Virus record (IMG/VR): IMGVR_UViG_3300031566_000031
Span: 1-59,261 of that record
Origin: a virus
DNA: 59,261 bases
Direction: 5' to 3' (one strand)
The notes beneath the pieces were generated by a model. That model was not told the DNA's origin. It worked only from the letters and a program-made list of their open reading frames with translations, and did no database searches. Position numbers and translations under genes: made by a program. Shown one piece after another: positions 19,035 through 46,979 of the stretch (the first letter of the stretch is position 1; each line of letters starts with the position of its first letter).

Positions 19035-19061
19035 CGCCTATAGACGGCCATCTACGAAGCT
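19035..19061 (+). promoter_or_regulatory. Candidate phage promoter motif upstream of the W-like gene
   Basis: The 29-bp gap holds GCCTATAGACGG (19036-19047). It matches the GCCTATAGG.CGG core found before the genes at 45060 and 46992. The downstream GTAGG box of the other copies is missing here, so this is the weakest of the four main copies. It is 17 nt from the start codon. Confidence 0.4.
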
Positions 19062-20207
19062 ATGACTACCGATTTCCAGCTTGGATACGCGTGCCCCCAC
19101 CTGACGGTGGAGGAGCGTGTACTTCTGGGCAGCGACCGCCGCTCGCTGGAGACGCGTCAGCCCGTCTCGTCGGAGGATTTCGTTCAGATCTCAGTCAACA
19201 ACGGCGTGAATATCCCCAGGGAGGGCCTTCTCTCGCCTGCACAGGTCACGGGTGCCGTTTCGGGCCCCTTTATGATCCGGCAGAATGAGAACACGATCAC
19301 CTTGCGCAACAGCCAGGGCTTGATCTCGGATTTCGCCCTGCCTGTAGGCACCCGTGTGACCGCGGATCGGATCGTGGAGTTGCTCAACGCGCAGAGACTC
19401 AACCAGGGCATCGGAATCGTCGCTGAGAGCTTGAAGGGATTTCTGCGATTCAGCGACATTGATGTGCTCGGGCCCGCGTCCCGGATCGAGATTCGTGGTC
19501 CGGCGGCGGCGGCGATAGGGTTCGTGAATCAAATTGCCGCGAAGGGGGCGACGGTGTTCCCGGGCTGGGAGATGGCCGCGCGCGAGGATCTCGTCAACAC
19601 GATCAATCTGAACCAACTCATCGTGGTGACGAATCGGTTTCCCAAGTTCGTCAAGCCGATTAAGTCGGACCCTGTGATCAAAGTGACCTACGCAACGCTC
19701 CAGTCGCGGTGCCGCAGGTGTCGAACCGTCGGGTTTGAGAACGACATGCGCTTCGACATTCAGGGTGAGCCCATCCAGATCAGGAACGAGGATCTGCTCA
19801 ATCAATCTCTGCTCAAGCTGATCACGACGGAGAAGGGCTCCAACCCCTTCCACAACTTTTATGGCACCGACCTCCACGCCCGCATCGGCATGAAGGCGCA
19901 GGGGGCAGCCGTCACCACAATCACCGAGGACGTTCTTCGCGCCGTAGACAACTTCAAACGGCTTCAGCAGATCGCAGGGCAATTTCAGAGCGTCTCCGCA
20001 AAAGAGCGTCTGTTCCAAGTTCTGTCGGTCAACGTCTCCGCGAGCCCGGTGGACCCGACCGTGTTCCTTGTGGAGATCGTGGGGTCCAACGCCTCGGGTC
20101 AACAGGTCAACGTCAGCACGGTGTTCGCTGCACCAGGATCCGCTGCGCTTGTCGGAAGCAACGGTCAGTCCCTCGGCCTCGCGCCGGATCCCAACGAGGA
20201 AAATTAG
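19062..20207 (+). CDS. Baseplate wedge protein, gp25/gpW-like with N-terminal extension, 381 aa
   Basis: Residues about 235-350 fit the GPW/gp25 fold: an initial helix (EDLLNQSLLKLITTEKGSNP), then FYGTDLHARIG, a helix, a KERL segment at the place where EPR is common, and terminal beta strands (FLVEIVGS). T4 gp25 is about 130 aa, so two-thirds of this protein is extra. Residues about 75-165 form a small alpha/beta module ending AAAIGFVNQ, which resembles a module in the giant protein. A CRRC pair (C217, C220), with C11 and H13 near the N-terminus, could bind zinc. The gene directly precedes Baseplate_J, as W precedes J in P2, which supports a role as a sheath-nucleating wedge subunit. The ATG has only a weak GAAG upstream. 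Confidence 0.8.
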   Translation: MTTDFQLGYACPHLTVEERVLLGSDRRSLETRQPVSSEDFVQISVNNGVNIPREGLLSPAQVTGAVSGPFMIRQNENTITLRNSQGLISDFALPVGTRVTADRIVELLNAQRLNQGIGIVAESLKGFLRFSDIDVLGPASRIEIRGPAAAAIGFVNQIAAKGATVFPGWEMAAREDLVNTINLNQLIVVTNRFPKFVKPIKSDPVIKVTYATLQSRCRRCRTVGFENDMRFDIQGEPIQIRNEDLLNQSLLKLITTEKGSNPFHNFYGTDLHARIGMKAQGAAVTTITEDVLRAVDNFKRLQQIAGQFQSVSAKERLFQVLSVNVSASPVDPTVFLVEIVGSNASGQQVNVSTVFAAPGSAALVGSNGQSLGLAPDPNEEN

Positions 20208-20210
20208 CGC

Positions 20211-25141: not shown

Positions 25142-25154
25142 CCCGCCTTCGGTT

Positions 25155-25183
25155 GCGCGCCTATAGGCGCGCCCAGGTAGGAC
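25155..25183 (+). promoter_or_regulatory. Candidate promoter motif with perfect 18-bp palindrome before the fibre module
   Basis: GCGCGCCTATAGGCGCGC (25155-25172) is a perfect palindrome that contains the shared GCCTATAGG core (25159-25167). GTAGGAC follows at 25177-25183, nine bases after the core. The start codon at 25201 is 33 nt after the core, nearly the same distance as for the copy before 45060. It could also form a short hairpin with a TATA loop and act as a terminator of the baseplate operon. Confidence 0.5.
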
Positions 25184-25200
25184 GCGCATGAGGAGCACAA

Positions 25201-28200
25201 ATGGCCGCTAGCATCGAAAGCCGACGAAACGGCATCGACCCCCTGGTTGGCGTGAGCCGCGAGGACTTGCGCGCTGGGGACGTTGTTACTCTCACCCACG
25301 TGGGGGCACCCGCGACCACCTACGGGTGGGCGCTCCTGTTTACCCCTGACCAACCTGACGGTACGCCCTCGACGGCGGTGTTGTCGGCGACTGTCGGGCC
25401 CGGTCCGATCACGTTCACCGTGGACAACGAGGGCGCGTACCTCGTCCAGTTGATCGTGGATTTTGGTCTTGGTACGGAATCCAAGCAGACAATTCGGATC
25501 CGTTACCAGACGGTATTCGGAGATCTGAAGCTCGTTGCAGGCGGTGAAAAGCGCGACACCACCGAAGCGATTCCTGTCGATGCCAGTGTTGAGGGTTGGG
25601 CCGACGACCAGAACATGAACCTCCAGACGTTGCTCGGTCTGGTGGAGCACGTCTCGTCCTCCGGTCGCATTCTCTACATCGACGCCAACCGCTCCAAGAA
25701 TTACACGAACCCCGCCGACGACCCGACCATTGCAGAGGGCTTCGCTGACGGTTCAACCTACGCCGAAGCTGCGGCCCTCGCCAACAACCCGGTCTGGAAC
25801 GAAGGCATCCCTCCGACCAAGAACACTCCCGTCATCGTGGCGGCGCGCCCCGGTCTCTACATCGAGAACCTGACCCTTGCGCCACACATTCACTTGGTCG
25901 CGTGGCCTTCAACTGGTGGCTTCCAGGCCGAGCCGGTTGAGACCACGGCGGACAACAGCGTCGTGTTCCGTGCCGCCAACGGCGGCGGCGTGCCGGCCCT
26001 GACCCACACCGCATCCACCCCGCTTGTCGCGGATAGCGTACATGTCCACGGGATCGTGTTTGAAAACGTCGGCACGACGACCAATGCTGCGATCCGAAAG
26101 ACGGGCCTCGGCGCGCTTCACCTGACGCAGTGCCGTGTCCTCCAGAGGGGCAACGGCGCAGGCCAGGGCGCAACCTTCTCCGCGGAGAACGGCTCGACCT
26201 ACATGAGCCGCACCCGGCTCATCCAGCAATCGACGTTTGACGATCTCCGTCTCTCTCTCGATGTTGCTCCTTCGGCTGCGAACGTGGCGAAGGTTCACCT
26301 CGACAACTGCTGGGTCGAAGGCACCTCAGTTCTGTCCGTGGACCCCAACCTCACGGGGGCAGGAACGGAGCTTTTCGCCAAGGGCACCACCTTCCGACAG
26401 GTCGGCATCGGCCCTCTCAGCTTCAACACCCGCACTTGGGCCAACCTTGCGCAGTTCGATGACTGCCGCTTCTCCAACGGGAACGGCGCGACCGAGGCCA
26501 TCGAAGCCAACGTAGGCCCGCTGGCACCCCCAGACGATCTCGTCGTTGAGGTCTGGAATTGCCTGCTTGGTCCGATCCCCGCTCCCCTTGGCATCTCGAT
26601 GGATGGCACCGGAGTTGTGGGTCCGATCAAGACGGTTCGGATCGGGCATTCCCGGTACGCAGAGCCCTTGATCTTGGCCGGCGCAGCCACCCAAGAAGCA
26701 CTCACCATCTCCAAGAGCCTGTTCTACGACAGCACGGTTTCCGGCATCGCTGCCGACAACGTGCAAGACGCCATCGATCAGGTATTCGATGCGGCGGACT
26801 CCATCGCCAACTTGGACGACGCCTACGACGGCTTCGATTTCTCGACAACGCCCGCGACTCGACTCGTTGGCGGCGGCCGGATCATCCTGGCGGATGCCGG
26901 TGCGGTTGAGGTGCATGGCGCGGGCATCAGCACTGACCCGCCCTTGATCGATGACCTCAGTGGCGACGGCTCCCTGCGCTTGAATCAGGCGTTGGAGGTT
27001 GGAGCGATCAATGCCCCCGAGGTGGTGATCAATTCCAATCTGTTCGGCAACGGGCCCTTCATGTCGATGGGCCAACTCGTTTGGTCGGACAGCCCCCTTG
27101 GAGCGTCGGCGTACATCGTCGGCAACGTGACGGGGGATACGGGCGGCACGGACGAGTACCGCAACTTCAATCTTCGCCTTCAAACGCAGAGTGGCTACGG
27201 GCACACGATGGCCGGGCCAATGCTCACCGAGATGGGCGCCCTCGTCCTTCAAGGCGGGTCTGCTTACGCCATCGGTGGGATCAACTCCCCGGCCGGCGGC
27301 TCCGTTTTCGTCATGGCCGGAAACGTGGACACGGCGGCCATCGCCCCCGCAGGAGACCCCGGCAACGTCTGGGTCATCCCTGGTGTCTCGGAGTCTGGTG
27401 GCACCCCAACGGTCGGCACGATGAAGCTGACCGATATGGACAGCGCGACCCCGGCGACTCTTGTCCCGCCTGCGAACTTCGGGGACAGTGGTGCCCCAGC
27501 GGGCACCATCACGTTCGCTACCGATACGGGTCCGGTCACAGTTACCTTCGTCGGCGGAGAGTTCTTCGCAGGGCCCGGAGGCATCCAAGAGTTGCTTCAA
27601 TTGGCGACGGGCATCGTTGCCACATGGCCTGGAGGCGCGACCCCGATCACTCTGACCTCGACGGGTCGTGGTCCGACTGCCGAGCTTTTGTACACAGCCG
27701 ACACAGGCGGCGTGAACGCTTTCCTTGGGGATTTCTCCCTTGGCGGCGGCGCTCTCTTTACGGCGGGCACCTTCCCGGCGTTCGTGGACCTCTGGTCGAA
27801 TGGCTCGTCCGAGCTTGTCGTAGGCCCTGTGGGTGGCGCGTTCAACATGGTCTACAGCCCTTCGACGGGCAAACTCACCGTGCCGGGTCTGATCGACCCG
27901 ACCGGCATGATCTTCACGAACTTCGACGTGGCTTCGATCCTCGCGGCTGCGGGAACCGATGGCGCCATTTTCGTGTCAGATGGTTCAGGCGCAGCCCCGA
28001 ACGTTGACCACCTGTATTTCCGTCGAGGATCGGATGGGGTCTTGTTTGACCTTCTTGCGGCCGGTGGTGGCGGTGCTCCGCTCGGTTCGCGGTACGTTCT
28101 GTCACCAGGAGCTTTCGATGGCTCCCTCACCGACGAGCGTGTCCTCGATGACGCGGAGATTGAATGGACTGACGGCGGAGGTGGTGGCCTTCTCACCGCG

Positions 28201-29022
28201 AACCTTGCGGTTCAAGGTGGTGTCACTCCCGGCGCGTACACAAACAGCGATATCACGGTCAACTCCAAGGGCCTTATCACTGCGGTCGCCAACGGCACTA
28301 CCGGCGGTGCTCCTTTGGCCGCCGAGTACGTCACGATCTCCAACGATGGAACCCTCACTTCAGAGCGCGTTTTGTCTGGTGACGGTGGCGTGTCCCCACC
28401 TGACCCCGGTGGCAACACGAATATCTTCTTCGCCGACCTCGGCGCAGGCAATCCCGTTCGCGCCGATCTGGTAGACACAGCAGTCACGGCAGGTCCCTAC
28501 GGCGGCACAGGCTCCGCCACTTCGTTCACTGTGGACGACAAGGGCCGCCTTACGGCTGCCGCGACTGTGGCCGGGCCCTTCCCGGCGGTCGATGTGATCT
28601 CCGAACAGATGACGATTCCGATCGGTGTCGGCCCGGTAACGATCAACGAATTCCACGCTCTCGCGGTCCCAACAACCTTTACGCCTGTCGCCGTCCCTGG
28701 CGGCGGTGGGCCCGCAGCGGCCTACGTCTACATCGACGTGGCGATGGGGATGGCCCCCGGCACCGCGATGTTGGAAATCTTCGCAGGGCCCCCGACCCCG
28801 GGTACACCTGCTGCCGGCACCTTGCCGGGCGCACATCCCTCGTTTGTCTCACTTGCACCGCCAACGGACGTGGGAGTCTTGACTTCGGCCACCCAGCTTG
28901 CGATTCCGATCGCTCTCGCTGCCATTCCGGCGGGTAGTCTGCTTGTGTTCAACATCGTCTACTCGGCGGTGGTCCCAGCGGGGGACGGCCTTGTCGTTTC
29001 TGTAACTGGTGTGACGGCCTGA
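25201..29022 (+). CDS. Tail fibre-like protein with beta-helix and fibre repeats, 1273 aa
   Basis: A good ribosome-binding site (GAGGAG, 25190-25195) precedes the ATG. An N-terminal Ig-like domain (residues 1-105) is followed by a right-handed beta-helix-like region (about 150-490; VIVAARPGLYIENLTLAPHI, then repeated short strands). Then comes TVSGIAADNVQDAIDQV (about 510-530), a motif typical of phage fibre shafts. Residues about 760-860 form a small alpha/beta module shared with other proteins here. Two tandem fibre repeats lie at about 960-1035 and 1040-1125, each with a 'YV.(S/L)...LT.ERVL' strand, then G.Y, then a V(N/D).KG.(L)TA strand. The C-terminal 130 residues are a hydrophobic, Pro/Gly-rich beta domain, possibly receptor-binding. 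The role is probably host recognition. Confidence 0.8.
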   Translation: MAASIESRRNGIDPLVGVSREDLRAGDVVTLTHVGAPATTYGWALLFTPDQPDGTPSTAVLSATVGPGPITFTVDNEGAYLVQLIVDFGLGTESKQTIRIRYQTVFGDLKLVAGGEKRDTTEAIPVDASVEGWADDQNMNLQTLLGLVEHVSSSGRILYIDANRSKNYTNPADDPTIAEGFADGSTYAEAAALANNPVWNEGIPPTKNTPVIVAARPGLYIENLTLAPHIHLVAWPSTGGFQAEPVETTADNSVVFRAANGGGVPALTHTASTPLVADSVHVHGIVFENVGTTTNAAIRKTGLGALHLTQCRVLQRGNGAGQGATFSAENGSTYMSRTRLIQQSTFDDLRLSLDVAPSAANVAKVHLDNCWVEGTSVLSVDPNLTGAGTELFAKGTTFRQVGIGPLSFNTRTWANLAQFDDCRFSNGNGATEAIEANVGPLAPPDDLVVEVWNCLLGPIPAPLGISMDGTGVVGPIKTVRIGHSRYAEPLILAGAATQEALTISKSLFYDSTVSGIAADNVQDAIDQVFDAADSIANLDDAYDGFDFSTTPATRLVGGGRIILADAGAVEVHGAGISTDPPLIDDLSGDGSLRLNQALEVGAINAPEVVINSNLFGNGPFMSMGQLVWSDSPLGASAYIVGNVTGDTGGTDEYRNFNLRLQTQSGYGHTMAGPMLTEMGALVLQGGSAYAIGGINSPAGGSVFVMAGNVDTAAIAPAGDPGNVWVIPGVSESGGTPTVGTMKLTDMDSATPATLVPPANFGDSGAPAGTITFATDTGPVTVTFVGGEFFAGPGGIQELLQLATGIVATWPGGATPITLTSTGRGPTAELLYTADTGGVNAFLGDFSLGGGALFTAGTFPAFVDLWSNGSSELVVGPVGGAFNMVYSPSTGKLTVPGLIDPTGMIFTNFDVASILAAAGTDGAIFVSDGSGAAPNVDHLYFRRGSDGVLFDLLAAGGGGAPLGSRYVLSPGAFDGSLTDERVLDDAEIEWTDGGGGGLLTANLAVQGGVTPGAYTNSDITVNSKGLITAVANGTTGGAPLAAEYVTISNDGTLTSERVLSGDGGVSPPDPGGNTNIFFADLGAGNPVRADLVDTAVTAGPYGGTGSATSFTVDDKGRLTAAATVAGPFPAVDVISEQMTIPIGVGPVTINEFHALAVPTTFTPVAVPGGGGPAAAYVYIDVAMGMAPGTAMLEIFAGPPTPGTPAAGTLPGAHPSFVSLAPPTDVGVLTSATQLAIPIALAAIPAGSLLVFNIVYSAVVPAGDGLVVSVTGVTA

Positions 29023-29028
29023 TGATCC

Positions 29029-34546: not shown

Positions 34547-35251
34547 ATGTCTGAACGCGAAACGAAGATCTTGGTCCCAGACCAAATGGGAGCCCCTATC
34601 CGCAGGGCGGGGGTCAAGTGGGGTGCTGGCATCTCCCACGAGGAGGATTTCGATTTCGATCGCGCCCCCAACCCGTCTTTCAAAGTGAAAGGGCGCGTCA
34701 TTTTCGACATGCGCGATGCCCGTACTGGCGAGCCCATCGAGTATTGGGAGAAGGACAACGTGATCACCTTTGACGCCGGCCTCCTGGTGGCTCGGCTGTG
34801 CAAGGACCCGTTGGAACCGAATTTCGGGATCAATATGCTTGGGATCGGAACGGGCGCCCTCGGCTCGCTCCTCAACCCCGACGCCCCGAGCAAGCAGCAG
34901 CGGCGGCTCAACAACGAGATCGCCCGCAAGACCTTCTCCTCGACCACCTTCCGTGACTCCAATGGCGCCGCTGTTGGCATCCCGACCAACGTGGTCGATT
35001 TCACCGCGACCTTTGGAGAGTCCGAAGCGGTCGGCGCGCTGAATGAGATGGGCCTTCTGTCCACCGTTTCGGCGAACGAGGCGATCACGAACGACAACAC
35101 CAACTTTGCAGGACAAGGCGGCGCAGCCTACGACCCGACCGTAGACGTTGTTCCTTTCGACATGCAGGTCAACCACCTCACTTTCGGAGTGATCGTCAAG
35201 CCCGCCACCGCGATCCTGACGATAACTTGGCGATTGACGTTTGGAGGGTAA
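34547..35251 (+). CDS. Phage structural protein of unknown role, 234 aa
   Basis: The N-terminal 40 residues are charged and probably flexible. Then follow strand-rich segments (SFKVKGRVIFDMRDARTGEP), a segment with DNVITFDAGLLVARL, and a Gly-rich turn (LGIGTGALGSL). Next is a short basic helix (SKQQRRLNNEIARK) and several strands ending VKPATAILTITWRLTF. I have seen this arrangement, 'N.(I/V)T..AG...(A)RL ... (A/G)IGTG ... L..E..RK', in small virion proteins encoded among tail-fibre genes of large phages, but cannot give a firm family name. It is the shortest gene in the fibre block and could be a fibre attachment or chaperone protein. The start has only a weak AAGG upstream. Confidence 0.65.
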   Translation: MSERETKILVPDQMGAPIRRAGVKWGAGISHEEDFDFDRAPNPSFKVKGRVIFDMRDARTGEPIEYWEKDNVITFDAGLLVARLCKDPLEPNFGINMLGIGTGALGSLLNPDAPSKQQRRLNNEIARKTFSSTTFRDSNGAAVGIPTNVVDFTATFGESEAVGALNEMGLLSTVSANEAITNDNTNFAGQGGAAYDPTVDVVPFDMQVNHLTFGVIVKPATAILTITWRLTFGG

Positions 35252-35258: not shown

Positions 35259-38200
35259 GTGGCCCGCCACGACAAATACTTTCCCGGTTCCGCTGTCTCC
35301 CGCTATCTCAAGCCAGGGGAGACGGGGTTCTCGCAAGTCGTCCATCAGGCGGCCCGGCCGGTCTTGGACTCCGAGCTAAACCTCGACCAAGAGCTTCGCA
35401 CACACCTTCAGTCCGTGCTGGCCCAACGGCGCATCCCGAGCGGATGGCTGCGCGGCCAGTCGCGCGCGGATGCTTACGCTGATTTCTCGTTCGACCCCCC
35501 GTGGCTTGCAGGCCCGACCCTCAACCCCGCGTTCACTGCTGACAGCTTCCACCTGCGGAAGCTCCAGGCGATTGTGGCGGGGCATCTGGTCGATGTGGAG
35601 TACACGAACACCGACGCCGAGGGTGACAACCTGATCATTCTCGACCCGGCGTCTCGCTTCGACGGCACCCCTCCAACGTTCAAGCGCACGGATTTCGTGT
35701 GGCTGGAGGTCTGGCTCAAGCTCATCTCTGACAGCGCGAACGCAGAGGCGACACTCACCGTCGTCTCTCCGGTCACTGCGATCGTGGGCGACACCGTGAC
35801 CGTGGCGGGGTTTGTATTGACGGGGATCGCCCCCGGCCCTCCTCCGCTGCCGACCGAATTCACCATCGACCCGGCGAGCGCAACGATCACGGCTGCCTCT
35901 TTGGCGGCTCAGATCATCGCGTCGGTTCCGGCCGTCACTGTCCAGGTGACAGGCAACAGTCTTCGGGTCATCGCGGCGACCTCCGGCACAGCCGGCAACG
36001 CGATCACGATCTCCTCTACGGGCGTGGGTCTGCCGATTTCCCCGGGCACCGGATTCCTCGCCGGAGGCGTGGACGAGCCGGGCAAGCCCAGCGAAGATCT
36101 GATCTACCGCCACGGCAACATTCAATCATCTACCACGGTCGCTCTGCCTGACGACATTGCTGACCCCGCGTTGAGCGCCGAAACCTCCAAGCGGGTGCAG
36201 GTGCAGTATTGCATCCGGCACTCAGGCGTTGCGGAGGGGATCAACTTCAAGATCGATGCCGACGGGTTCTCAAACCCCGCTGTGTTGGCCCAAGGCCCGC
36301 AGCCCGCCCCTGTTGCGTTGTACCCCTTCGTCCCGGCCGATCTGAAATCGACGCGGGACAACAGCGATGCCCGCGACCAAGTGGCGGGCACCGGCATTGG
36401 CTACGGCGTCGAGGATACGGGCCTGTGGATTGCTGGCGACGGCACCCTGGCCTCCGCCACGGACCTGGGCACGGTCGATGGCTATGTCTACGCGCTTCCG
36501 ATCTGCTTTGCATTCCGTCGCAACGATGCCGAAGGTGGGGCAGGCTTCGCCCCTCTGGCGAACACGAACGGGGCCCTCGCACACGACCATGCCCCCTTTG
36601 TGAACCCGGCGCTCTACTCCGTCGTGGACACCGCTGAATCGGATCGACCCGACAAAGCCTTCCACGACGCGATTCGGGACAACGACCTTCTCGACCTTCG
36701 CCGACACACCAGTTTCCAGGGAGCGGACCTCGCCGCTGAGTTGCAGCACCAGATGAAATCCCTGCTCGATGGGAATTTTCGTACCTGGGCTATCGACGCT
36801 GCTGACAAGAACGAGCTTGGAGCGGGCTCTGGCGACGTGTCCACGCGTTTCTTGGTCTGCAACCAAGTGGGTCGTACCGAGACGAACCCACCCGGCCTCA
36901 ACGGCGTTGCGCCGTTGTCGGGTGACACGACCCGCGGTGACACGATCCGAAACTTCGACCACGTTGCGCGTCGCTTCGGCGACCAGTCGGTAGTCGAGCG
37001 GTTCGTGATCTCCTTCGTCCCCGGCGACGATTTCGCTACCAACCCTGGCCGCTACGTGACCCGTGCCGGCTTCGCAGCCGCTTTCGCAGGTTGGGCTGAG
37101 GGTGACGTGCTTGAGCTTGACCTCGCCGCACTCAACGCCACTACGCTTGGAGATTTCGACGTGGCCTTCGCTTCCTTGGCGACGGGCAACGTGTTCGATT
37201 TCATGCCGGCCGGAACTCAGATCACGGACGTGCTATCGGTCTTTCACGACGACGGCAACTACGACTCGGTGGAGGACCAGACCGTCAAGCCGACCCTGAT
37301 CGCTGGTCTCGGCACAGAGCACGTCAGTATCACGCTCGACGCAAACGCGACCCAAGTGAACGCCGGCCTTGATACGGCCGGGGTCTATCACGACATGGTG
37401 GGCACGTTGATCTCGGGCGACGTGGGCTCCTCTCGCCGCATCTTCTTGGAGGTCGAGGTCACGTACCCGCTTGGCGTAGGTACGACCGATACTCCCGACC
37501 TTGAGGTGGTGCAGGACGCAGATCCTTACCCCTACGGCCCGCTGATCGAGAACGACATTACGTTGGCTCAGCGTCCGCCGGACATGGAGAATCCCCTGGC
37601 GCCGAATTTCCGCTCTGGCTTCCGTGAGGTGCACCTTGAGTACATCGCCCGTGACGCCACTGGTGGTGTCGCCAACGCGGGTGCGCCAGTGGGAGCTATC
37701 ACGACAGAGACACTTGTCTCGCGCAACGACCTGGAGCTTGTGCTCGGACGACGCGCCTTCGGCTCGACGGTCTCGACCATCGGAGTCACTGATCAACAGG
37801 ACGCGGGTGGTCGTACCATCAACACGAACCTGACCGATTACGGCTCCTCGTCACGTCTCGTCACGCTGCTCAACAGCGGAGGAGGCTCTGCCGTTCCCTT
37901 GTCGGGTGCAGGCCAGACCCAAGTGGCTGTCACCTTCTTCGCCCAAGATGCGGTGCCGAACTACGGTCCTGCGGGAGCGGGCTATCAGGTCGGTGTCTAC
38001 TACCGCTCCAACGCCCCGCAGACCGCAGGTGTGAAGGAAGGAACCATGACTACGGGTGGCGTCAGCGACTTCCCGTACACGGGTGCTACCGGGCCGCTTC
38101 CAGAGGAGCTTCTGATCGAGCCTCTCGTCATGGCTGGCGAGTTGTGGACAGGCACCGTCGGCATGGGCAGCGTGGAGCTTCCGTTCCCGTATTTCGCCCC

Positions 38201-38720
38201 GCTGGACCAGATCCCGATCAACGATGGGTCCACCTCTCCGGTGCCTCCCGCCCCCGGCGATGAATTCCCCGGCGAGTGGTATTTCGCTGCGACGGCGAAC
38301 ATTTCGATCGATGATTTCGACGCACAGACTGGCCTGCTCGCGCTGCATCCTTTCGTTCAGGCGGATGGGACGCAGGAGTACCAGATGGGTGGCGTGAACA
38401 TTGACGAGGTGCCTTTCAAGGATGCCGAGTTCCGAGCGGCATATCCCGTGATCAACAAGGACGCATACCGTCCCACGGTGTTCTCCCAGCCTCTCAGCGG
38501 GGTCGTCCGCCATAAGGTTTTCATGCCCTTTTTGGCGAAGGCGCGGGCTGACTCCGTGCTGTATCGCAAGGACGAGCTTTTGCTTGTCGTGATCTCTCGC
38601 TGGGCTGCGTTGGACGAGAACAACACGGTGCGCTTCGTGGACACCGACTCCGGCAACCGAACCTGTGCCGGGGTGTACCGCACACGGAGCCTTCTGCTGA
38701 CGGCAGGGAACGGAGAATAA
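35259..38720 (+). CDS. Large fibre-like virion protein, 1153 aa; paralogue of the gene at 47802
   Basis: A GTG start lies seven bases after the previous stop. The N-terminal 45 residues contain FSQVVHQAARPVLDSELNLDQ, matched by FQLVVYQRGKPPLDSEHNLLQ in the 1870-aa protein. Further shared blocks follow in the same order: D(F)V(W/F)LEVW, Y..GN(I/V), a DD..DPA....T..RVQ(V/L)QY.IR block, A.GPQ/AQGPL, (D)(L/F)GT(V/I)DGYV(Y/W)A(L/I)P, and D(L)(L)D(L)RR..(S/N)F. The two clearly arose by duplication. An extra module at about residues 165-272 (GTAGNAITIS to GFLAGGVD) resembles a module near the C-terminus of the paralogue. The C-terminal half is beta-rich without a recognised motif. It is probably part of a host-recognition appendage or the outer baseplate. 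Confidence 0.75.
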   Translation: MARHDKYFPGSAVSRYLKPGETGFSQVVHQAARPVLDSELNLDQELRTHLQSVLAQRRIPSGWLRGQSRADAYADFSFDPPWLAGPTLNPAFTADSFHLRKLQAIVAGHLVDVEYTNTDAEGDNLIILDPASRFDGTPPTFKRTDFVWLEVWLKLISDSANAEATLTVVSPVTAIVGDTVTVAGFVLTGIAPGPPPLPTEFTIDPASATITAASLAAQIIASVPAVTVQVTGNSLRVIAATSGTAGNAITISSTGVGLPISPGTGFLAGGVDEPGKPSEDLIYRHGNIQSSTTVALPDDIADPALSAETSKRVQVQYCIRHSGVAEGINFKIDADGFSNPAVLAQGPQPAPVALYPFVPADLKSTRDNSDARDQVAGTGIGYGVEDTGLWIAGDGTLASATDLGTVDGYVYALPICFAFRRNDAEGGAGFAPLANTNGALAHDHAPFVNPALYSVVDTAESDRPDKAFHDAIRDNDLLDLRRHTSFQGADLAAELQHQMKSLLDGNFRTWAIDAADKNELGAGSGDVSTRFLVCNQVGRTETNPPGLNGVAPLSGDTTRGDTIRNFDHVARRFGDQSVVERFVISFVPGDDFATNPGRYVTRAGFAAAFAGWAEGDVLELDLAALNATTLGDFDVAFASLATGNVFDFMPAGTQITDVLSVFHDDGNYDSVEDQTVKPTLIAGLGTEHVSITLDANATQVNAGLDTAGVYHDMVGTLISGDVGSSRRIFLEVEVTYPLGVGTTDTPDLEVVQDADPYPYGPLIENDITLAQRPPDMENPLAPNFRSGFREVHLEYIARDATGGVANAGAPVGAITTETLVSRNDLELVLGRRAFGSTVSTIGVTDQQDAGGRTINTNLTDYGSSSRLVTLLNSGGGSAVPLSGAGQTQVAVTFFAQDAVPNYGPAGAGYQVGVYYRSNAPQTAGVKEGTMTTGGVSDFPYTGATGPLPEELLIEPLVMAGELWTGTVGMGSVELPFPYFAPLDQIPINDGSTSPVPPAPGDEFPGEWYFAATANISIDDFDAQTGLLALHPFVQADGTQEYQMGGVNIDEVPFKDAEFRAAYPVINKDAYRPTVFSQPLSGVVRHKVFMPFLAKARADSVLYRKDELLLVVISRWAALDENNTVRFVDTDSGNRTCAGVYRTRSLLLTAGNGE

Positions 38721-38722
38721 CG

Positions 38723-41700
38723 ATGCCTCGCAGCGGAGATCCCAAGGACATTAAGGTCGGTACTGGTAAGGCGAACCAGGGCAGCGTTGACGCTAATTCG
38801 TTCACGCCTGACCTCGCGTCGGGCATCGGGGGCAAGCATGGGATCAAGGCTCACGTTGACGACCCGCAGGACGCTCACCCAGCTTCCGCGATCGGCACGA
38901 CCACGACTCAGGGCTTCTACGACGGAGACGACGTGCAGTCGGATTTGGATGAGCTTTCGGGCCTCATCCCGCCCCGGCCCCCCTACGTCGGCACGTACCT
39001 GACCAACCTCGGCACAATGCTGACCGGCTCGTTGCTCAGCGGCATCCCTGACTGGGGCCACCTCAAGCTGAACGACGCCGGCCACATCAATCGGGGCAAC
39101 GTCATCCCGCCCGTTCCCGCTACACCGAACGCCGATGCGGACGTGTACCCCTACTATCACTTTGCTCCGGCATTCGCCGACGACGCGCCTCCTTTCGATC
39201 TGCCGGGCAACGACCCGCACCACGATGCGACGTTCAATCTGAACCCCGCAGGGACAGGCGACCCCACGTACAAGGGTGGTGGTCTCGGACTCGCCCACGC
39301 AGGTGGCTTCACCCGAGGGGTGGCCGGCGGAATCGGGTCGGACGGCCCGGTGATCGAGACGGCACGACTCATGCCCACGGCTGGTGGAGCGTTCCGGCCC
39401 ATCGTGCTTTCGGGCATGGTGTACCCATCCGATCGAGGAGTGCTGGCCTTGATCCACTGGCCGGCAGACGGTGACATTGGCGATTTCCTCGCCCAAGACC
39501 TGACCGACCGCTGCCCCGCCGCCCTTCGTCTAGGCCAGGGCCTTTTGGACAACTGCGATGGCGCTCCGGGTGGCATCTTCAGCGAAGGCGACCCTGACAT
39601 TCTCGCGTACCCGGGACGAGCCAGCGGCCAGTACGATCTGGTCGAGCTTCACACGGGTCTTGTCGGAGGCACGGGCCCTGTCCTTCCGCCGCCCTTCGAT
39701 GTGGGGGTTCCGAGCGCGGGTCAGGTTCGACTCGGGCAAGACCCCGGCGCAGGCGTGCCCGTAGTGACAGGCGGGATCCCGATCCTCGGTGGTACGACCA
39801 ACGCGTTGGGCCAGGACGGCGACCCCTACGCCCCTGCGGGCAACGACAACAACTTTTTCCGCTACCGTCTCCCCTACTTGGAGGACTACACGGCAGGGTC
39901 GGGTCCGACGTTCACGCCGGATGCCGAGAAGCCTCGTTACTTCTCCAAGCCTCTCGTTGCCCTCGACTACCTGACCGATCTGACTCAGGCGGGTGACTAC
40001 CCGAATCTCCCTGACGACTACTGGCATTTCCAGATCGCCCGTTACCGTCACCAATTCCTGTTTCCGCAGAACGCTCCGCTCCCGCCTGACCCTATCGACC
40101 AAGGAGCGTGGATCCTGTTTCACTTCAAGCGCGAAGCGGATTTTGAAGCGTTCGTTCGTGACGGTATTGCACCTGACGATCCGACTTTTGGATACGAGAC
40201 GTGGAGTAAGCCGGTTCTCTTGTTCGCATCGAGCCCTGAGAGCACCGACAACATCGCGGACCCTGGCACACCTTTCGATACGGCCGAGGGCTACCACGTC
40301 ATCCGTGCGGCGACGATGGAGGACCCCACTGCGAACCTGATCACCTCCACCGCGAAGGAGTACACGTTCACTGCAACGTCGGACGAGGTAATGATCATCT
40401 CGGGCGTCCAGTATTTCGTGCCCGGCACCGCCGGCTCCGAGTGGACGATCGACTCGATGAGTTTGATCATTGATCCCGGCGTCTGGACCTACAACTACAA
40501 CCTTGGTCGCTTGGCCGCCTCGCCCGCCGAGATCACGACGGGGATGGCGGGGCAGTATCCGTTGTTCGTTTACCTCGGCATGTTCGCCGCGGAGACTGGG
40601 AACATTGTGGAGCCCTCGGCGACGACCTCCTTCGACGGAGACGAGTTCGCCCAGCGGCTTGAATTCCGCTACGACACTCTCGACGTTGCTAGCGGCCACG
40701 GTCCCTTCGACCTGACCAACGGCCCCACGATTGCGGACAACATGACCCTCGCCCTGTTCCCGGGCGACCCCATGACGTTCCTCGGCGATGTGTCGGTGCC
40801 CCACTTCACCACCGACGCTCGGATCCGATCCTTCGTTCGCAAGCCGCTCGGCCACGAGGTCCCTGCGGAGACGGCTTTGGAGACTCTGTTCGACCGCCCG
40901 GCAGGCGACGGCATCCTATTCCACACGACCGACCACAACCCCACTGGTGGCACGGGAGCCTACGGCAACTTCCTGACTGGCGCCCTGTTTACGCCCGTCC
41001 GACCAAGCCTGGAGACGGCCCTCAAGGACGTTCAGGAGCGGTTCTTGGACGAGGTGTACCGATACTGGCCGAGCAACCTGTTCTCCGTCCACGACCCCAC
41101 CTGGGACGGCACACGGGGCAACATTTCGGGCCCAGGGCTGCCTTTCGCATCCGCGCCGATTGACCTCCCCGTTCGGATTGGGTCGGACGCTCCGACGCAA
41201 ACCGCATCGTGGGTTCAGGCCCACATTCACCTTCTCGATGTGGGGTCAGATCCGCTCGTCACACCAGACGCTCAGGTAGCGGGGTTGCCGGATCGTAACC
41301 CTCCGATCACGGACGGCGTGGTGGGTCCCGTTCCCTCAACAGGCATCCTGCTCTACCCGCAAACCGACTACACCGCCGGGTTCCGTCCGCGTCTCGGGGT
41401 GGACATTACGACCCCACAATTCGACTACACCGTGGCTTCCGAGCCCTCGCGCCGGTACATCCGTATCTTCGACGCGGGGTACACCCGCGACGCGTCGCCC
41501 GAAGCAATCGCCGGAACAAAGCTGGTGCGCTTCCGCATCCGCGGCCTCCGTCTTGTCGATTTCGCATGGAAACCGAATCCCGCAGGGACTCCCCCCGGAG
41601 GTTCCGACGAGATTGCGATCTTCTGCAAGGTGCCCGGCCTCACCTCTTGGATGGACATGGGGCGTACCGATGGTGCGGGCCCTTCCAAGCAAGACGCGCT

Positions 41701-41968
41701 CAATGATGGCGCGGGTTGCAAGGTGATCGGCCCGACGACCCGGGACGCCCGCGACCCTGTGACGGGAGTTTGGTATAGCGAGGTGCTGATCAATGTTGGG
41801 CCGGCAGCCTCCTTCTTCCAGAGCAGCTTCGGCGAAGTGCCCGTCATGGTGAAGGTCGTTATGAAGGCGGCAGGGGCCTCGCTGAATTTCCAGCAGGGCG
41901 GCACCGACGGGACCACCAATGATGTACGCGGTCTGATCGGCATCGAGGTACTGCGAGGAGTTTCCTGA
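38723..41968 (+). CDS. Tail fibre-like protein with C-terminal beta-sandwich domain, 1081 aa
   Basis: The N-terminus carries DDPQDAHPASAIGTTTTQGF followed by D(D)VQSDLDELSG. This 'DAH.ASAI ... dVq..LdeL' arrangement is common at the start of phage fibre proteins. Residues 60-400 are Gly/Pro/Asp-rich with many aromatic residues. Residues 400-900 are beta-rich. The last 175 residues (about 905-1080) look like a compact beta-sandwich with RYIRIFDAGYTRD, FCKVPGLTSWMDMGRTDGAG and SKQDALNDGAGC. That region is a good candidate for the receptor-binding tip. The gene starts two bases after the previous stop, and its own stop overlaps the next ATG (TGATG), so it is cotranscribed and probably coupled with both neighbours. 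Confidence 0.75.
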   Translation: MPRSGDPKDIKVGTGKANQGSVDANSFTPDLASGIGGKHGIKAHVDDPQDAHPASAIGTTTTQGFYDGDDVQSDLDELSGLIPPRPPYVGTYLTNLGTMLTGSLLSGIPDWGHLKLNDAGHINRGNVIPPVPATPNADADVYPYYHFAPAFADDAPPFDLPGNDPHHDATFNLNPAGTGDPTYKGGGLGLAHAGGFTRGVAGGIGSDGPVIETARLMPTAGGAFRPIVLSGMVYPSDRGVLALIHWPADGDIGDFLAQDLTDRCPAALRLGQGLLDNCDGAPGGIFSEGDPDILAYPGRASGQYDLVELHTGLVGGTGPVLPPPFDVGVPSAGQVRLGQDPGAGVPVVTGGIPILGGTTNALGQDGDPYAPAGNDNNFFRYRLPYLEDYTAGSGPTFTPDAEKPRYFSKPLVALDYLTDLTQAGDYPNLPDDYWHFQIARYRHQFLFPQNAPLPPDPIDQGAWILFHFKREADFEAFVRDGIAPDDPTFGYETWSKPVLLFASSPESTDNIADPGTPFDTAEGYHVIRAATMEDPTANLITSTAKEYTFTATSDEVMIISGVQYFVPGTAGSEWTIDSMSLIIDPGVWTYNYNLGRLAASPAEITTGMAGQYPLFVYLGMFAAETGNIVEPSATTSFDGDEFAQRLEFRYDTLDVASGHGPFDLTNGPTIADNMTLALFPGDPMTFLGDVSVPHFTTDARIRSFVRKPLGHEVPAETALETLFDRPAGDGILFHTTDHNPTGGTGAYGNFLTGALFTPVRPSLETALKDVQERFLDEVYRYWPSNLFSVHDPTWDGTRGNISGPGLPFASAPIDLPVRIGSDAPTQTASWVQAHIHLLDVGSDPLVTPDAQVAGLPDRNPPITDGVVGPVPSTGILLYPQTDYTAGFRPRLGVDITTPQFDYTVASEPSRRYIRIFDAGYTRDASPEAIAGTKLVRFRIRGLRLVDFAWKPNPAGTPPGGSDEIAIFCKVPGLTSWMDMGRTDGAGPSKQDALNDGAGCKVIGPTTRDARDPVTGVWYSEVLINVGPAASFFQSSFGEVPVMVKVVMKAAGASLNFQQGGTDGTTNDVRGLIGIEVLRGVS

Positions 41969-44900
41969 TGGCTGATTTTGAAGATTTCGATGAAGAGACC
42001 TTGGAGCGTCTACGCAAGGCGCTGGCAAAGCGATCTGACACTGGTACGGGTCTTGACCCGTGGCAGGAGCACTTTGATCGCGGCCAATCGACCTACAGCG
42101 AGCAGGTTCTCAGCAACGACATTATCCAGGGGCTTTCGGGCTCTTGGGCCGCGTCCTACGATTTCGGCTGGGGGGCCGGCATCCGCCCCGAGTCGTTGGG
42201 TCTCCAATCCCAAGACCCCTCGTTCCCGACCAAGACGCGTCCCCGCACGTCCAAGTTTGGTCGCCGTGGTGTTCCCGACATTGATTTCGTCCCCTACAAC
42301 TGGAGGACCAACCGCTTCTCGATCAAGGGACCGGCCCTTGTTGGCAACCCGATCGTGTTTGAGCCCTACGGCCCGACGCTCAAATCGGATGCGATGGATT
42401 GGACCTGGGAGATTCTGCCCGGTGGTGGGCCCAACGGCGGCGACCTTCTGCTCCAAGCGCCTCGCCCCGACGGTGCGACAGCGACAGCACTGACCATCGA
42501 GGAGATCTGGAACACCCCACCGTGGTCGATCGGAGACGCCGACGAGCCCAACGGTGGGCTGTACCTCATGGTGACGGATTACGGGGAGATGGACGGTTCC
42601 CTCGACCCCGCGACCTCGGCCTCGATGACGCCCCTCGCTGCTCACGCGGACACGGCACGCACTGAAATCTTCCGCGTCGCCTCCCTCTTCAACCTTCACG
42701 GCGGCCCCTACGCGCCGCACGAAGCTCGGATCGAACTTCATCCGAACAAGCCTCTCTCGGACTACTTCGACCTTCCGGCCGCTCGCTCCGTCCGAGGCGT
42801 CACACTGTTTACTCCGTACGCGGCACGTCTTGCCGCCATCCCTGAATCGGGCGCAGGGCCGGGACGCGAGCGGGTGTTCCAGGTCATTTCGCCGATGAAT
42901 TCGGCGGCTTCTGACTACTACCCCCCTTACGATGGGGGGACCGGCGGAGACGGCACATGGCTTCAGGGCGGTTTTCCGTCGCACGACCCCGCTGCCCCTG
43001 TGGGCACCGGGGCGACATGGATGGGCAAGGCAACTCTGCCTATCCCCCTCCCGATCCGCGAGACCGGGGGCATCATCGAGAAGCTCGGATTTCCCGGCCC
43101 TTCGGCTGCGGACGCGGGCACGTCTCTGATCCAAGCCGTTCTCGCACCCGACCCGACTGATGTTGGTCGGATCATTCGGATTTACCACGTGGACCGCGCT
43201 GACGCGGCGTCCTTCACAACAGGAGACACCACCAAGATCCTGGGGTGGTTTGAGGTCTTGGACGTGACGGGGAGCGACTACACGATCCGGCACGTCCCTG
43301 ACGTTCCGCCGTTGACCGGGCAAGTGTTCCACGGGCAGGTCACGATGGTGGCTGCGGGCGACCCCACGATCATGGTGGGGTTTACGATCCACGACCCTGT
43401 GTCTGAGATCTTCCGTGGGGATTTTGATCACGACAAGGTGGAGTCCGCACGGCTCAAGAACCTGATCGATCCCCATTTGGTTGAGCGGTTTGCCAAGAAG
43501 CGTCTTGGTTCCGCGGCTCCACAATCTTCGGGAGCCTCTCCCGGCCGCGCGGATCGGGCAGCCATCCCGACTGCTTCTGTTGCAGGGGGCCCTGCTCCTG
43601 GGGTTCAGTGCGAGAACCCGGGCAATCTTCTTGACCTCGGCTTCCGCATGGTCCTGTATCCGGCGAAGGGCAACCTTGCGGGAAACCCGGTGCCCGATTT
43701 TGATCGGCCCATCGACTCGCTGGAAGCAGTCATCGACGGATCGATTACGGAGAAGCAGTACATCGAGGTCGATTACTCCAACGGTGTCGTCACGCTCAGC
43801 CATCCTCCGCCGGCCGGGGTAGACAGTCAGATCGTGCCGAACGGCGTGCTCCTCGGGCCGAACAACCCACGTGGCGAGGTGATCCTGTACGCCTCTTGCG
43901 TGCCCTACAGCCGTGAGCCGCAGTCCAACGCTCCGGGTATTAGAGCGGCTGTCCACAATCCTGATGGCAACGACGAACACGTGGATGTGTTCTCCAACAG
44001 GATCACGTCCACCATCGATCTCATCTCCACGGCTTTCCTCGGGGGCCCTCCTTGGATCGATGAGGCTACGGGCCTTGTTCTGACGACGACATGGGGAGGC
44101 CCACAGACAGGCATCGTTGAAATTCTGGACGGGGGCATCGGGTCCACCTCCATCGGGCGGTGGTCTTACTCCAAGGTCGAGTCTTTCGCGCCGGGGCAGG
44201 ACACCCTCAAGCTGGTCGCGTCCCTGACGGGTTCGGGCCCCCCTGCCGTCTTCGGCCCAACGATGACGGTCGTGTTGCGCCGAGAGGTTCGGACGGTAGC
44301 AACCGCCTCTCTCGACAACAGTTTCTTCATTGACGACTACCGCTTCGATACGACCTACGGAAGCACGGCGCGGTTCAACACGCTCCGGTTCGGCTCTACG
44401 ATCACGCCTTTCATCGACGGCTCGGCACAGATCACCTCTGGCAGTGGTGGTTCGGGACGACTCCGCTGGGACGAGGCCCTCGACAACGGGCCAAACAGCA
44501 ACGCGAATAACGCTTACATCAGCTTGCTCGATGGTCTGTTCTGGGATACCTCGGAGACGACTCCATTGGCGGGTCCCGCGTTCGCTCCGACCCCCGAGTC
44601 TCCTTTTCATGGCGGACCTTTGTACGGCAAGTTTGCCCGTAAGGGGACAGTCTCGCCCATCGACGGCTTGACGTGGACGAACATCGGCGCTCCGATCTAC
44701 ACGTGGGGAGCCTCGGCCAACGGCGGCGGGAACCAGATCATCGTTGAGGCCCGTATTTCGCGGAAACGCTTTTCCCCAACCGGGACTACGCAGGTTGCCA
44801 TACTGAAAGAGGTGTGGACCTACAGCTTTGGAACGTGGGCAAAGGCTGAGACGATCTTGGCAACGACGCAATCGACCGTGTTCCGTTTCTTTGGATCAGG

Positions 44901-45000
44901 GGCATCGATCTCCTTGCAGGCGATCGATGATGCGACCTTCACCCAAGGGGTTGAGGCTGTGGTGGAGTATTTCGCCGTTCCTGGGTATGCAGCTAGCTAA
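41968..45000 (+). CDS. Large beta-rich virion protein, 1010 aa
   Basis: An acidic helical N-terminus (DFEDFDEETLERLRKALAKR) is followed by a DPWQEHFDRGQSTYSEQVLS segment that could be an attachment motif. Most of the rest is strand-rich, with many Pro, Gly, Asp and aromatic residues. A Ser/Ala/Pro-rich linker near residues 520-545 (APQSSGASPGRADRA) divides the protein into an N-terminal part of about 510 and a C-terminal part of about 460 residues. I recognise no catalytic signature. The overlap of its start with the previous stop places it in the same translational unit as the fibre gene at 38723, so the two may be partners in one appendage. Function is inferred from context only. Confidence 0.7.
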   Translation: MADFEDFDEETLERLRKALAKRSDTGTGLDPWQEHFDRGQSTYSEQVLSNDIIQGLSGSWAASYDFGWGAGIRPESLGLQSQDPSFPTKTRPRTSKFGRRGVPDIDFVPYNWRTNRFSIKGPALVGNPIVFEPYGPTLKSDAMDWTWEILPGGGPNGGDLLLQAPRPDGATATALTIEEIWNTPPWSIGDADEPNGGLYLMVTDYGEMDGSLDPATSASMTPLAAHADTARTEIFRVASLFNLHGGPYAPHEARIELHPNKPLSDYFDLPAARSVRGVTLFTPYAARLAAIPESGAGPGRERVFQVISPMNSAASDYYPPYDGGTGGDGTWLQGGFPSHDPAAPVGTGATWMGKATLPIPLPIRETGGIIEKLGFPGPSAADAGTSLIQAVLAPDPTDVGRIIRIYHVDRADAASFTTGDTTKILGWFEVLDVTGSDYTIRHVPDVPPLTGQVFHGQVTMVAAGDPTIMVGFTIHDPVSEIFRGDFDHDKVESARLKNLIDPHLVERFAKKRLGSAAPQSSGASPGRADRAAIPTASVAGGPAPGVQCENPGNLLDLGFRMVLYPAKGNLAGNPVPDFDRPIDSLEAVIDGSITEKQYIEVDYSNGVVTLSHPPPAGVDSQIVPNGVLLGPNNPRGEVILYASCVPYSREPQSNAPGIRAAVHNPDGNDEHVDVFSNRITSTIDLISTAFLGGPPWIDEATGLVLTTTWGGPQTGIVEILDGGIGSTSIGRWSYSKVESFAPGQDTLKLVASLTGSGPPAVFGPTMTVVLRREVRTVATASLDNSFFIDDYRFDTTYGSTARFNTLRFGSTITPFIDGSAQITSGSGGSGRLRWDEALDNGPNSNANNAYISLLDGLFWDTSETTPLAGPAFAPTPESPFHGGPLYGKFARKGTVSPIDGLTWTNIGAPIYTWGASANGGGNQIIVEARISRKRFSPTGTTQVAILKEVWTYSFGTWAKAETILATTQSTVFRFFGSGASISLQAIDDATFTQGVEAVVEYFAVPGYAAS

Positions 45001-45041
45001 TTCGCTGCGTTTTCCTGCCTATAGGTCGGTCCGAGTAGGGC
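44989..45041 (+). promoter_or_regulatory. Hairpin plus candidate promoter motif before the Gly-rich fibre gene
   Basis: A GCAGC/GCTGC stem (44989-44993 with 45004-45008, overlapping the upstream stop codon) leads into GTTTTCC. One base later comes GCCTATAGG (45017-45025), then nine bases, then GTAGGG (45035-45040). The same order, hairpin then GCGTTTTCC then core then GTAGG, occurs before 46992. The core is 34 nt from the start codon at 45060. The hairpin with T-run could end the upstream transcript and the core could start the next one. Confidence 0.5.
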
Positions 45042-45059
45042 CTTCCTGGCAGGAGAAGC

Positions 45060-46904
45060 ATGGCAACGAAGCGTACAAAATGGACCTTTGCGGACGCAAC
45101 TGAGCGGGACACGCACGTCGGTTTTGGGTCGGGTGTCAACGACGGCGACTGCTGTATTCTCCTGAGCGACTATTCGATGTGGGCCTACAACGGCACCGCT
45201 TGGATCCAATCTCCGGCCACCGCCTCAAGCCTGTCCGCGGTCCTCCTTGTCGGGAACACCTCGGGAGCCAGCGACATTGAGGTGTCCGCGGCCCAGGCCG
45301 TGCGCGGCGTCGATGGGGGAACGGGCGCGGGGCTGACCGTCCGCGGTGGCGCAGGGTCTACCTCGCTCGGAGGGCCGCTCACCCTTCAAGGCGGAAGCGC
45401 GGCCGGCACAGGGAACGGTGGCGACTTGATCTTGGCGGGGGGGATCGCGGCGGGCACAGGCACCGATGGCACTGTGAGCGTGACGGGTTCCACCGCCTCC
45501 GTCACCTCTTCCGACGCTGACCTCTCCCTAAACGTTTTGGGTGGGAACAACTTGGTCGTCAATGCTGATGGCACGTTTTTCCAATCCGATTCGGGAGCGT
45601 TTGTCGTCATCGGGAAATCCCCCTTCGCAAACACGGTCAGTCTCGACCTCGCAAGCTCGGCGACAGGAACTTTGGAGAACAGCCTCGCGGGTGGTGTCCT
45701 TGAGCTTCGGACCTTCACGACCGGAGCGGCAACGAACACCGGAAACCTGACGGTCAACACCGGAGCCAACGCCAACGCTGTCTCGGGTGACACCGGGGAC
45801 CTGATCCTTGGCACGGGGTCGGTCACGAATGCTGCGTCGGCGGGCACTTCGGGGGACGTAGCGCTTATTGCGGGTACGGCGGCGGGAAGCGGAAACGGCG
45901 GCAACATCCTCCTGACGCCCGGAAGCACTGGAAGCGGCACCGAAGGGACGGTTCGGATCACGGGCAAAGGCCAGTCGCTCCACGGTGGAAATGCGACCCG
46001 ACGATTCCAGATCCTTGGCGGCACTCAGACCGCCATCACAGGCGATTCAACAGGTCCCAGTGTTTACTTGGAAGCCCAGGGGACGGCGGCACGGGACGGA
46101 GCCCAGGTCACAGTTAGCAACTCGGTTGTAGGCAATGGCTCTTTTGTTGCTCGTGGAGGCAACGCTCTTTCGGGCACCACTGCTGGGGGAAGCGCCGACC
46201 TCATCGCTGGAATCGGTTTCGGAGCAGGAGCCGGGGCCCAATCTTCGATTCAAGCGGGTAACGGCGGCGCCACTGGCAACGGGGGCTACGCCTTCGTTCT
46301 GGCGGGCAACGCGGGGGCGACCTCCGGTAACGGCGGTGGCGTAGTGATCACGGCCAAGGACGCAACCGGATCCGGCCTCGGTGGTCCCGTCAACATTACG
46401 GCGGGTGGGTCTCCCACAGGGACCCCGGGCGATATTAACCTCACGACGGATGGTGGTCTGGTTAAGATTCGCACGACGAGCGGGTTCGCGGGCTCTGAGA
46501 GGGTGAGTCAGACCTACGGTGTCCAGTTCACTTCGCCCTCCGGTGGCGGGGTTCTCGACATGGTGACGCTCGGCACGCTGGATACCAACGGTCGGAACCT
46601 CAAGGTCAAGCTCCATGTGACGGCGCAGAACAGCGTCGTGGACGACGACTTCATCAGCGCCGTGATCCAAACTGCGGCCTACCGTGCGGGAGGGACCGTC
46701 TCAGTTGTGACCACCCCCGCGCTGACGAGCCACGAAGGCAACTCCTCGGGGACCAACCCCACGTTTGTCGCGGATCTCTTCTTCGCGGTCGCCGCTACCG
46801 GCAACGACATTCGGCTGACTCTCCGAAATTCAAGCAGCACGACGACCTACACCCTCAACACGGCTGTAGAGTGGTCCGTCCAAGAAGGTGGCTTCTCCTC
46901 CTAA
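45060..46904 (+). CDS. Gly-rich beta-helical tail fibre-like protein, 614 aa
   Basis: The N-terminus has the fibre-start pattern W(T)F..ATERD and MWAYNGTAWIQ (about residue 40). Residues about 80-480 are Gly/Thr/Ser/Ala-rich tandem repeats of short strands. The best pair is at about 107-145 and 270-307: GTGNGGDLILAGG...GTGTDGTVSVTG and GSGNGGNILLTPG...GSGTEGTVRITG. This is typical of a trimeric Gly-rich beta-helix shaft. The last 130 residues form a conventional beta domain (NLKVKLHVTAQNSVVDDDFI to the C-terminus) that may be the distal or trimerisation domain. A candidate promoter lies upstream and GGAG (45051-45054) is a good ribosome-binding site. Probably part of a host-recognition fibre. 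Confidence 0.8.
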   Translation: MATKRTKWTFADATERDTHVGFGSGVNDGDCCILLSDYSMWAYNGTAWIQSPATASSLSAVLLVGNTSGASDIEVSAAQAVRGVDGGTGAGLTVRGGAGSTSLGGPLTLQGGSAAGTGNGGDLILAGGIAAGTGTDGTVSVTGSTASVTSSDADLSLNVLGGNNLVVNADGTFFQSDSGAFVVIGKSPFANTVSLDLASSATGTLENSLAGGVLELRTFTTGAATNTGNLTVNTGANANAVSGDTGDLILGTGSVTNAASAGTSGDVALIAGTAAGSGNGGNILLTPGSTGSGTEGTVRITGKGQSLHGGNATRRFQILGGTQTAITGDSTGPSVYLEAQGTAARDGAQVTVSNSVVGNGSFVARGGNALSGTTAGGSADLIAGIGFGAGAGAQSSIQAGNGGATGNGGYAFVLAGNAGATSGNGGGVVITAKDATGSGLGGPVNITAGGSPTGTPGDINLTTDGGLVKIRTTSGFAGSERVSQTYGVQFTSPSGGGVLDMVTLGTLDTNGRNLKVKLHVTAQNSVVDDDFISAVIQTAAYRAGGTVSVVTTPALTSHEGNSSGTNPTFVADLFFAVAATGNDIRLTLRNSSSTTTYTLNTAVEWSVQEGGFSS

Positions 46905-46909
46905 TTCGG

Positions 46910-46979
46910 GCTGCTAGCGCAGCGTTTTCCCGCCTATAGGACGGCTCCAAGTAGGACACCTGTGCCACAGGCGCAGGTA
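46910..46979 (+). promoter_or_regulatory. Hairpin plus candidate promoter motif before the 266-aa gene
   Basis: A GCTGC-TAGC-GCAGC hairpin (46910-46923) is followed by GTTTTCC (46924-46930), one base, GCCTATAGG (46932-46940), ten bases and GTAGGAC (46951-46957). This is the best second copy of the arrangement before 45060, including the GCGTTTTCC box. A further short inverted repeat, CCTGTG-C-CACAGG (46959-46971), lies before the ribosome-binding region and is not present at the other sites. Confidence 0.5.

Follow-up and report, generated by a model that had tools for sequence, protein, structure and literature searches.

Intergenic gaps of the IMG/VR virus record IMGVR_UViG_3300031566_000031, analysed over its full 59,261 bases (~62% GC; hereafter the window), carry a recurrent element of three boxes. 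An upstream box, CG(G/T)T(A/T), is followed by a core, YCTAT(A/G/C)G, then by a C-rich stretch and a third box, RTRRG; from the first C of the upstream box to the Y of the core the distance is exactly 10 bp. Judged from sequence and conservation, this element is probably a phage-specific promoter that serves mainly late (virion, lysis) genes in a clade of jumbo phages and would be used by the host RNA polymerase together with a phage factor. The window belongs to this clade, whose members share the element. Both the 10-bp spacing of the two upstream boxes and the third box are newly described here; a literature search of limited extent found no description of the element.

Architecture of the element

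On the strength of PHROG matches that include baseplate proteins, a holin and GroEL, the window is read as a piece of the tail/baseplate cluster of a large phage. Its genes lie nearly all on the same strand with small gaps between them, and the gaps make up 1.9% of its bases. Two alignment-based scans returned ~100 related loci on contigs of up to 618,736 bases. Baseplate and other proteins link the window to the IMG/VR contigs G001 (116 kb, ~79% identical), G002 (152 kb, ~53% identical) and G003 (40 kb, ~100% identical), all three of them fragments like the window itself, and to LR745208.1 (485 kb, ~41% identical). LR745208.1 and two further large relatives, G004 (497 kb) and G005 (619 kb), were read over their full length.

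To define the element, we aligned by expectation maximisation the upstream regions of orthologs of the window genes that start at 46992, 25201 and 34547 (76 regions in all). An estimated 67 of the 76, drawn from relatives of widely differing identity, hold a site, and the aligned consensus reads C-G-(G/T)-T-(A/T), then, at a fixed distance, G-Y-C-T-A-T-(A/G/C)-(G/A). Across 71 pooled gap sites, the core consensus is YCTAT(A/G/C)G. A sequence-only reading of the window had described a fixed core, GCCTATAGA at 19036 and GCCTATAGG at 25159, 45017 and 46932, with GTAGG nine or ten bases later in three copies. We recovered these sequences at those positions, and GTAGG follows CCTATAGG by 9, 9 and 10 nt at 25160, 45018 and 46933, respectively. 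The base after CTAT is not fixed, however (A, G or C in relatives), and the upstream box had been missed. The spacing of the two upstream boxes is also apparent without a matrix: CG[GTA]T[AT] stands exactly 10 bp before YCTAT in 9 of 47 gap occurrences versus 1 of 425 in coding sequence in G004, and in 15 of 65 versus 0 of 409 in G005, counts that include the sites of these two genomes used to train the matrix described below. When all gaps were searched together for motifs de novo, other repeats prevailed and the element was not cleanly recovered, whereas the orthologous gaps alone gave it; a search seeded on LR745208 drifted to a different motif.

In most of the 71 pooled sites, an RTRRG-like box starts 12–14 nt after YCTAT, and a perfect RTRRR occurs at offsets 11–15 in 33 of the 71, against 1–7 for equally wide intervals at other offsets. 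Unlike the third box, the start codon stands at widely varying distances: nearly all of the 71 cores lie 15–98 nt before the called start, and the 33–34 nt originally noted before the start codons at 25201 and 45060 is true of those two genes but is no rule, being 51 nt at 46992. At several sites the start codon is immediately 3' of the third box, so the box cannot be a Shine-Dalgarno sequence there; where the start codon is ~8 nt away, it could double as one. Most simply, the third box would mark the region in which transcripts start.

A different role for the third box would be to pair with the core, as CCTAT and GTAGG can, in a hairpin that serves as a processing or translation signal at the RNA level. 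At some sites the pairing is kept with changed bases (TCTAT/GTAGA in locus L104; judged by eye). At many others the third box is ATGAG or GTGAG, which, again by eye, does not pair with CCTAT, and no structured RNA of Rfam matched the window at gathering score. Since pairing between core and third box is often impossible, and the upstream box lacks a partner, the processing signal that the sequence-only reading had offered beside a late promoter is the less likely of its two proposals, and we consider such a hairpin very improbable.

Position and strand of the sites

In the window, CCTATAGG occurs three times, each time in a short gap; 100 dinucleotide shuffles averaged 0.05 occurrences and never gave more than 1. 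The position matrix scores exactly four sites in the window above 12 bits, each of at least 17 bits and all within gaps. For a genome-wide count, we took sense-strand matrix hits of at least 13 bits that precede a predicted start by 12–75 nt. There were 4 such hits in the window (0.1 expected), 6 in G001 (0.1), 9 in G002 (0.4), 18 in G004 (1.2) and 26 in G005 (1.7). Antisense hits numbered 0, 2, 3, 4 and 6 in the same order, and reversed or permuted matrices returned 0–2. Intergenic enrichment, on which the sequence-only reading had staked its proposal beforehand, was thus found genome-wide in the relatives. A first, crude gene caller that took the longest possible starts had put some sites inside genes; with a caller based on coding potential, most of the ones close to a start fell into gaps.

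Strand preference also bears on whether the element is an operator or another protein-binding site (for a repressor, replication or packaging) that lies near other promoters. Such a site would suit the palindromic core (CCTATAGG) of the three window copies, but conservation does not extend to the palindrome, CTAT being followed by A, G or C, and the hits favour the sense strand over the antisense strand, 26 to 6 for G005 and 18 to 4 for G004. We give this reading very little credence.

Sigma70-type promoters (TTGACA, 16–18 nt, TATAAT) gave 1 and 3 matches in two stretches, at about the shuffle mean or below it and none at the sites, in line with the original remark that the core is unlike a sigma70 pair. 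Nor does the element fit a sigma54 promoter (TGGCAC-N5-TTGCW; GG at -24, GC at -12), as its second box, YCTAT, has no GC. Being strand-specific, placed upstream of starts genome-wide in relatives and kept at orthologous gaps, the element is best explained as the phage-specific promoter first proposed, although an exclusively late role is too strong a claim. In the window, the sites are followed by a gene for a baseplate protein, by large tail-cluster genes and by a phrog_5417 gene. In relatives, they include an endolysin gene, genes for ribonucleotide reductase and tRNA nucleotidyltransferase, and many genes whose proteins have no match. The element would therefore appear to be used mostly, rather than only, for late genes. 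One of these genes, G004 405580–410460, encodes a 1,626-residue ribonucleotide reductase large subunit in which an HNH endonuclease and other family stretches split the reductase matches, possibly an intein or similar insert.

Candidate factors and known promoter systems

In the mechanism we propose, YCTAT would act as a -10-like box and transcription would start at or just before the RTRRG box. A phage sigma-type factor would read both upstream boxes, one helical turn apart, and so reprogram the host RNA polymerase. We infer both the candidate reader and the transcript start position from sequence. The search for a phage RNA polymerase or sigma factor that had been suggested at the outset, run on the relatives, turned up sigma-like proteins but no polymerase genes. 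T7-type RNA polymerase (PF00940) was not found in G001, G004–G011 or LR745208, with the T7 control detected. The multisubunit beta family PF00562 was not found in G004, G005 or G007, with the phiKZ and AR9 controls detected, and the multisubunit family PF00623 was not found in the large relatives.

These searches weigh on a T7-type promoter, from which a single-subunit phage RNA polymerase would begin its transcript at the GG of TATAGG. TATAGG does occur in some copies and recalls the end of T7-class promoters, as the sequence-only reading had remarked, and the conserved stretch is short. Yet PF00940 was not found in relatives of up to 619 kb, and the bases after YCTAT are often not GG. With no single-subunit RNA polymerase found, and with fixed boxes both upstream of the core and downstream of it, a layout foreign to the T7 class, we hold a T7-like promoter to be extremely improbable.

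Two sigma-like proteins are candidate readers. The first, common to G004, G005 and LR745208, matches sigma region 4 (PF04545, E 7.5e-13), with two such stretches in the version carried by G004 and G006. Its profile matches the solved region 4 of SigF at 1e-6, and its predicted structure contains two three-helix helix-turn-helix (HTH) units. Foldseek pairs this structure with sigma region-4 domains at high probability, but with no E-value below 0.001. In the large relatives, its gene directly follows a NusG-like (KOW) gene and a clamp-loader gene, forming what we take as a clamp-loader/NusG-like/double region-4 operon, and the element lies directly after it (G004 432852, G005 277506). The second candidate bears a weak Pfam likeness to region 2, and in the PDB its profile matches sigma-H at 1.7e-6. 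Relatives of this sigma-H-like protein occur in both G004 and G005, and in LR745208 over region 2; its structure prediction is of low confidence (mean predicted local distance difference test score, pLDDT, 55.7).

The clamp-loader gene of G004 (428777–431717) lies in separate pieces with a short open reading frame (430166–430525) between them, possibly an inserted element; the gene is whole in G005 and LR745208.

A NusG-like gene ahead of the double region-4 gene raises the further question of whether the element acts during elongation, as an ops-like recruitment or antitermination site that the phage NusG-like protein would bind while the polymerase paused in each gap. The core of the RfaH ops element is GGCGGTAG, which the upstream box (CGGTA, often CGGTAG) resembles. 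Ops, however, has no counterpart of YCTAT, where conservation here is strongest, or of the third box. Moreover, each genome has many such sites, placed where gene units begin, and no host-type promoter was found upstream of them, sigma70-like matches not exceeding chance in the two stretches scanned. An elongation site is improbable.

Among the closest parallels to the proposed phage-specific promoter are those of T4. T4 late promoters consist of a TATA box of 8 bp that precedes the start by about one helical turn, lack a -35 element and are served by gp55, gp33 and the clamp gp45 (PMC2988020). The first of these factors is related to sigma domain 2, the second is a coactivator, and activation proceeds via the replication clamp (PMC2988020). 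Shared features would be a TATA-like box before late genes, the host RNA polymerase with phage sigma-type factors, and the lack of a classical -35; the double region-4 gene here follows a clamp-loader gene. The sequences differ, as the sequence-only reading had noted of the core: the boxes are CGKTA and YCTAT, with the 71-site core consensus YCTAT(A/G/C)G rather than TATAAATA, and there is an additional upstream box as well as a third box. The factors differ too, the candidates being a sigma-H-like and a double region-4 protein; the gp55 family, phrog_234, was not found in G004–G008, with the T4 control detected. Because of its own consensus and layout, we do not file the element as a T4-type late promoter.

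Jumbo phages that lack an RNA polymerase are reported often to encode sigma factors, which probably steer the host polymerase to phage promoters (PMC7824862, PMC13282480); the second source, a review, holds that the sigma homologs of such phages likely act on phage-specific promoters. The element fits what is expected of these phages. With phiKZ and AR9 the clade would share jumbo-phage promoters of separate early and late classes, but no PF00562 homologue was found in the large relatives searched. A bolder version of the mechanism is conceivable, though rather unlikely: the two boxes would be gripped by the tandem double region-4 protein, DNA opening would fall to the sigma-H-like protein as a subunit of its own, and the clamp-loader/NusG-like operon would couple late transcription to replication, amounting to a new promoter architecture.

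Several observations count against the promoter reading or parts of it. Two of the five window sites (19036 and 34512) have no clear third box. Enrichment in LR745208 is weak (3 hits with the same matrix versus 0.7 expected). Some of the loci used to train the matrix come from G001, G002, G004 and G005, and to that extent a minority of the hits in these genomes are not independent. Our gene caller was home-made and may have misplaced the starts of short genes. Metabolic genes, for ribonucleotide reductase and tRNA nucleotidyltransferase, lie behind some of the sites, which is why 'late' is not strict, and, if transcription starts inside the third box, the distance from YCTAT exceeds that from a textbook -10 box to the start. 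Finally, sigma-like genes were not found in the window or in G001–G003, all of which are fragments, so their presence in this exact phage is extrapolated from relatives.

The promoter rule can be tested across a clade of very large phages that is widespread and is represented here mostly by metagenome contigs, the longest of 619 kb, and with it transcription units and late genes would be predictable from sequence alone. The two conserved sigma-like proteins, in turn, are specific candidates for the early-to-late transcription switch.

Window sites, their genes and other repeats

The window holds five sites in total, all on the + strand and all consistent with the consensus. Site 1 (19027–19043) is the weakest at 11.5 bits, combining a poor upstream box, CCTAA, with the core at 19037–19041; the orthologous gap of G001 has ACGTAATTCTGCCTATACC. 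Behind it lies a baseplate protein gene (19062–20207, +; phrog_975, E 3.6e-6; phrog_43, E 1.2e-4).

Site 2 (25150–25181; 19.8 bits) has all three boxes: CGGTT (25150–25154), CCTAT (25160–25164) and GTAGG (25177–25181). It is kept in the orthologous gap of G001, G002 and many IMG/VR relatives down to ~45% protein identity; CTATAGG and GRTAGGAC are retained in both G001 and G002, and the flanking proteins of G002 are ~45–53% identical. Two genes follow inside the tail/baseplate cluster, 25201–29022 and 29029–34491 (+), separated by 6 nt and without a PHROG match.

Site 3 (34503–34519) pairs CGGTA (34503–34507) with CCTAT (34513–34517). The sequence-only reading had listed it as a degenerate copy at 34511; the copy exists, but it begins at 34512 (GCCTATGGA, in full CCGGTAGCTGGCCTATGG) and, far from degenerate, is the best conserved in the window at 20.4 bits. 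Most of 39 orthologous upstream regions carry it. It heads a tight presumed operon of four genes on the + strand with gaps of at most 7 nt (34547–35251, 35259–38720, 38723–41968 and 41968–45000), the first of which matches phrog_5417.

Site 4 (45008–45039; 19.2 bits) comprises CGTTT (45008–45012), CCTAT (45018–45022) and GTAGG (45035–45039), and is present in the near-identical contig G003 as well. It precedes a single gene (45060–46904, +) for a protein of 614 residues, for which no ortholog was detected in G001 or G002. Site 5 (46923–46955; 20.0 bits), with CGTTT (46923–46927), CCTAT (46933–46937) and GTAGG (46951–46955), is also found where the orthologous gaps of G001 and of many other relatives lie. 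Just 3' of its third box, in the presumed leader, the sequence reads as an inverted repeat, ACCTGTGCC-ACA-GGCGCAGGT (46958–46978, +); G001 has the same repeat with another spacer, ACCTGTGCC-ATG-GGCGCAGGT. Two genes follow, 46992–47792 and 47802–53414 (+), syntenic in relatives. A possible sixth site near 59157 (CATATAGGCG) scores below 10 bits.

Two of the large window proteins, encoded by 35259–38720 and 47802–53414, have related N-terminal regions (~39% identity over roughly 148 residues), which suggests a duplication. Near the window end, 56155–57753 encodes a GroEL-type chaperonin (phrog_5725) with relatives in G001, G002 and LR745208.

Other repeats occur in the gaps of the large relatives. 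LR745208.1 (loci L004–L013) has a different long repeat at ~41 sites; it ends in CGTRCCGATAGGG, in many cases preceded by CTAAAAATT, and the genes that start right behind it are mostly small (for example 12998–13183, 349778–350065 and 1660–1944); it looks like a second, perhaps early, promoter class. In G004 (loci L152–L176), ~20 gap sites carry GTAAACTT, then some 20 nt, then CGCGTAGAGG, for instance upstream of 160096, 248753, 323341 and 352285, and look like a further class of promoter; ahead of the clamp-loader gene at 428777, CGCGTAGAGG occurs on its own, with no GTAAACTT. By a simple pattern, an N-terminal stretch like MTLRSKLIRLAHENPELRPQLLPLLKEA is common to otherwise different proteins, 14 in G004, 6 in LR745208 and 1 in G005 (for example LR745208 274678–275658 and 351543–351824, and G004 290220–290513), and could be a virion-targeting or processed leader.

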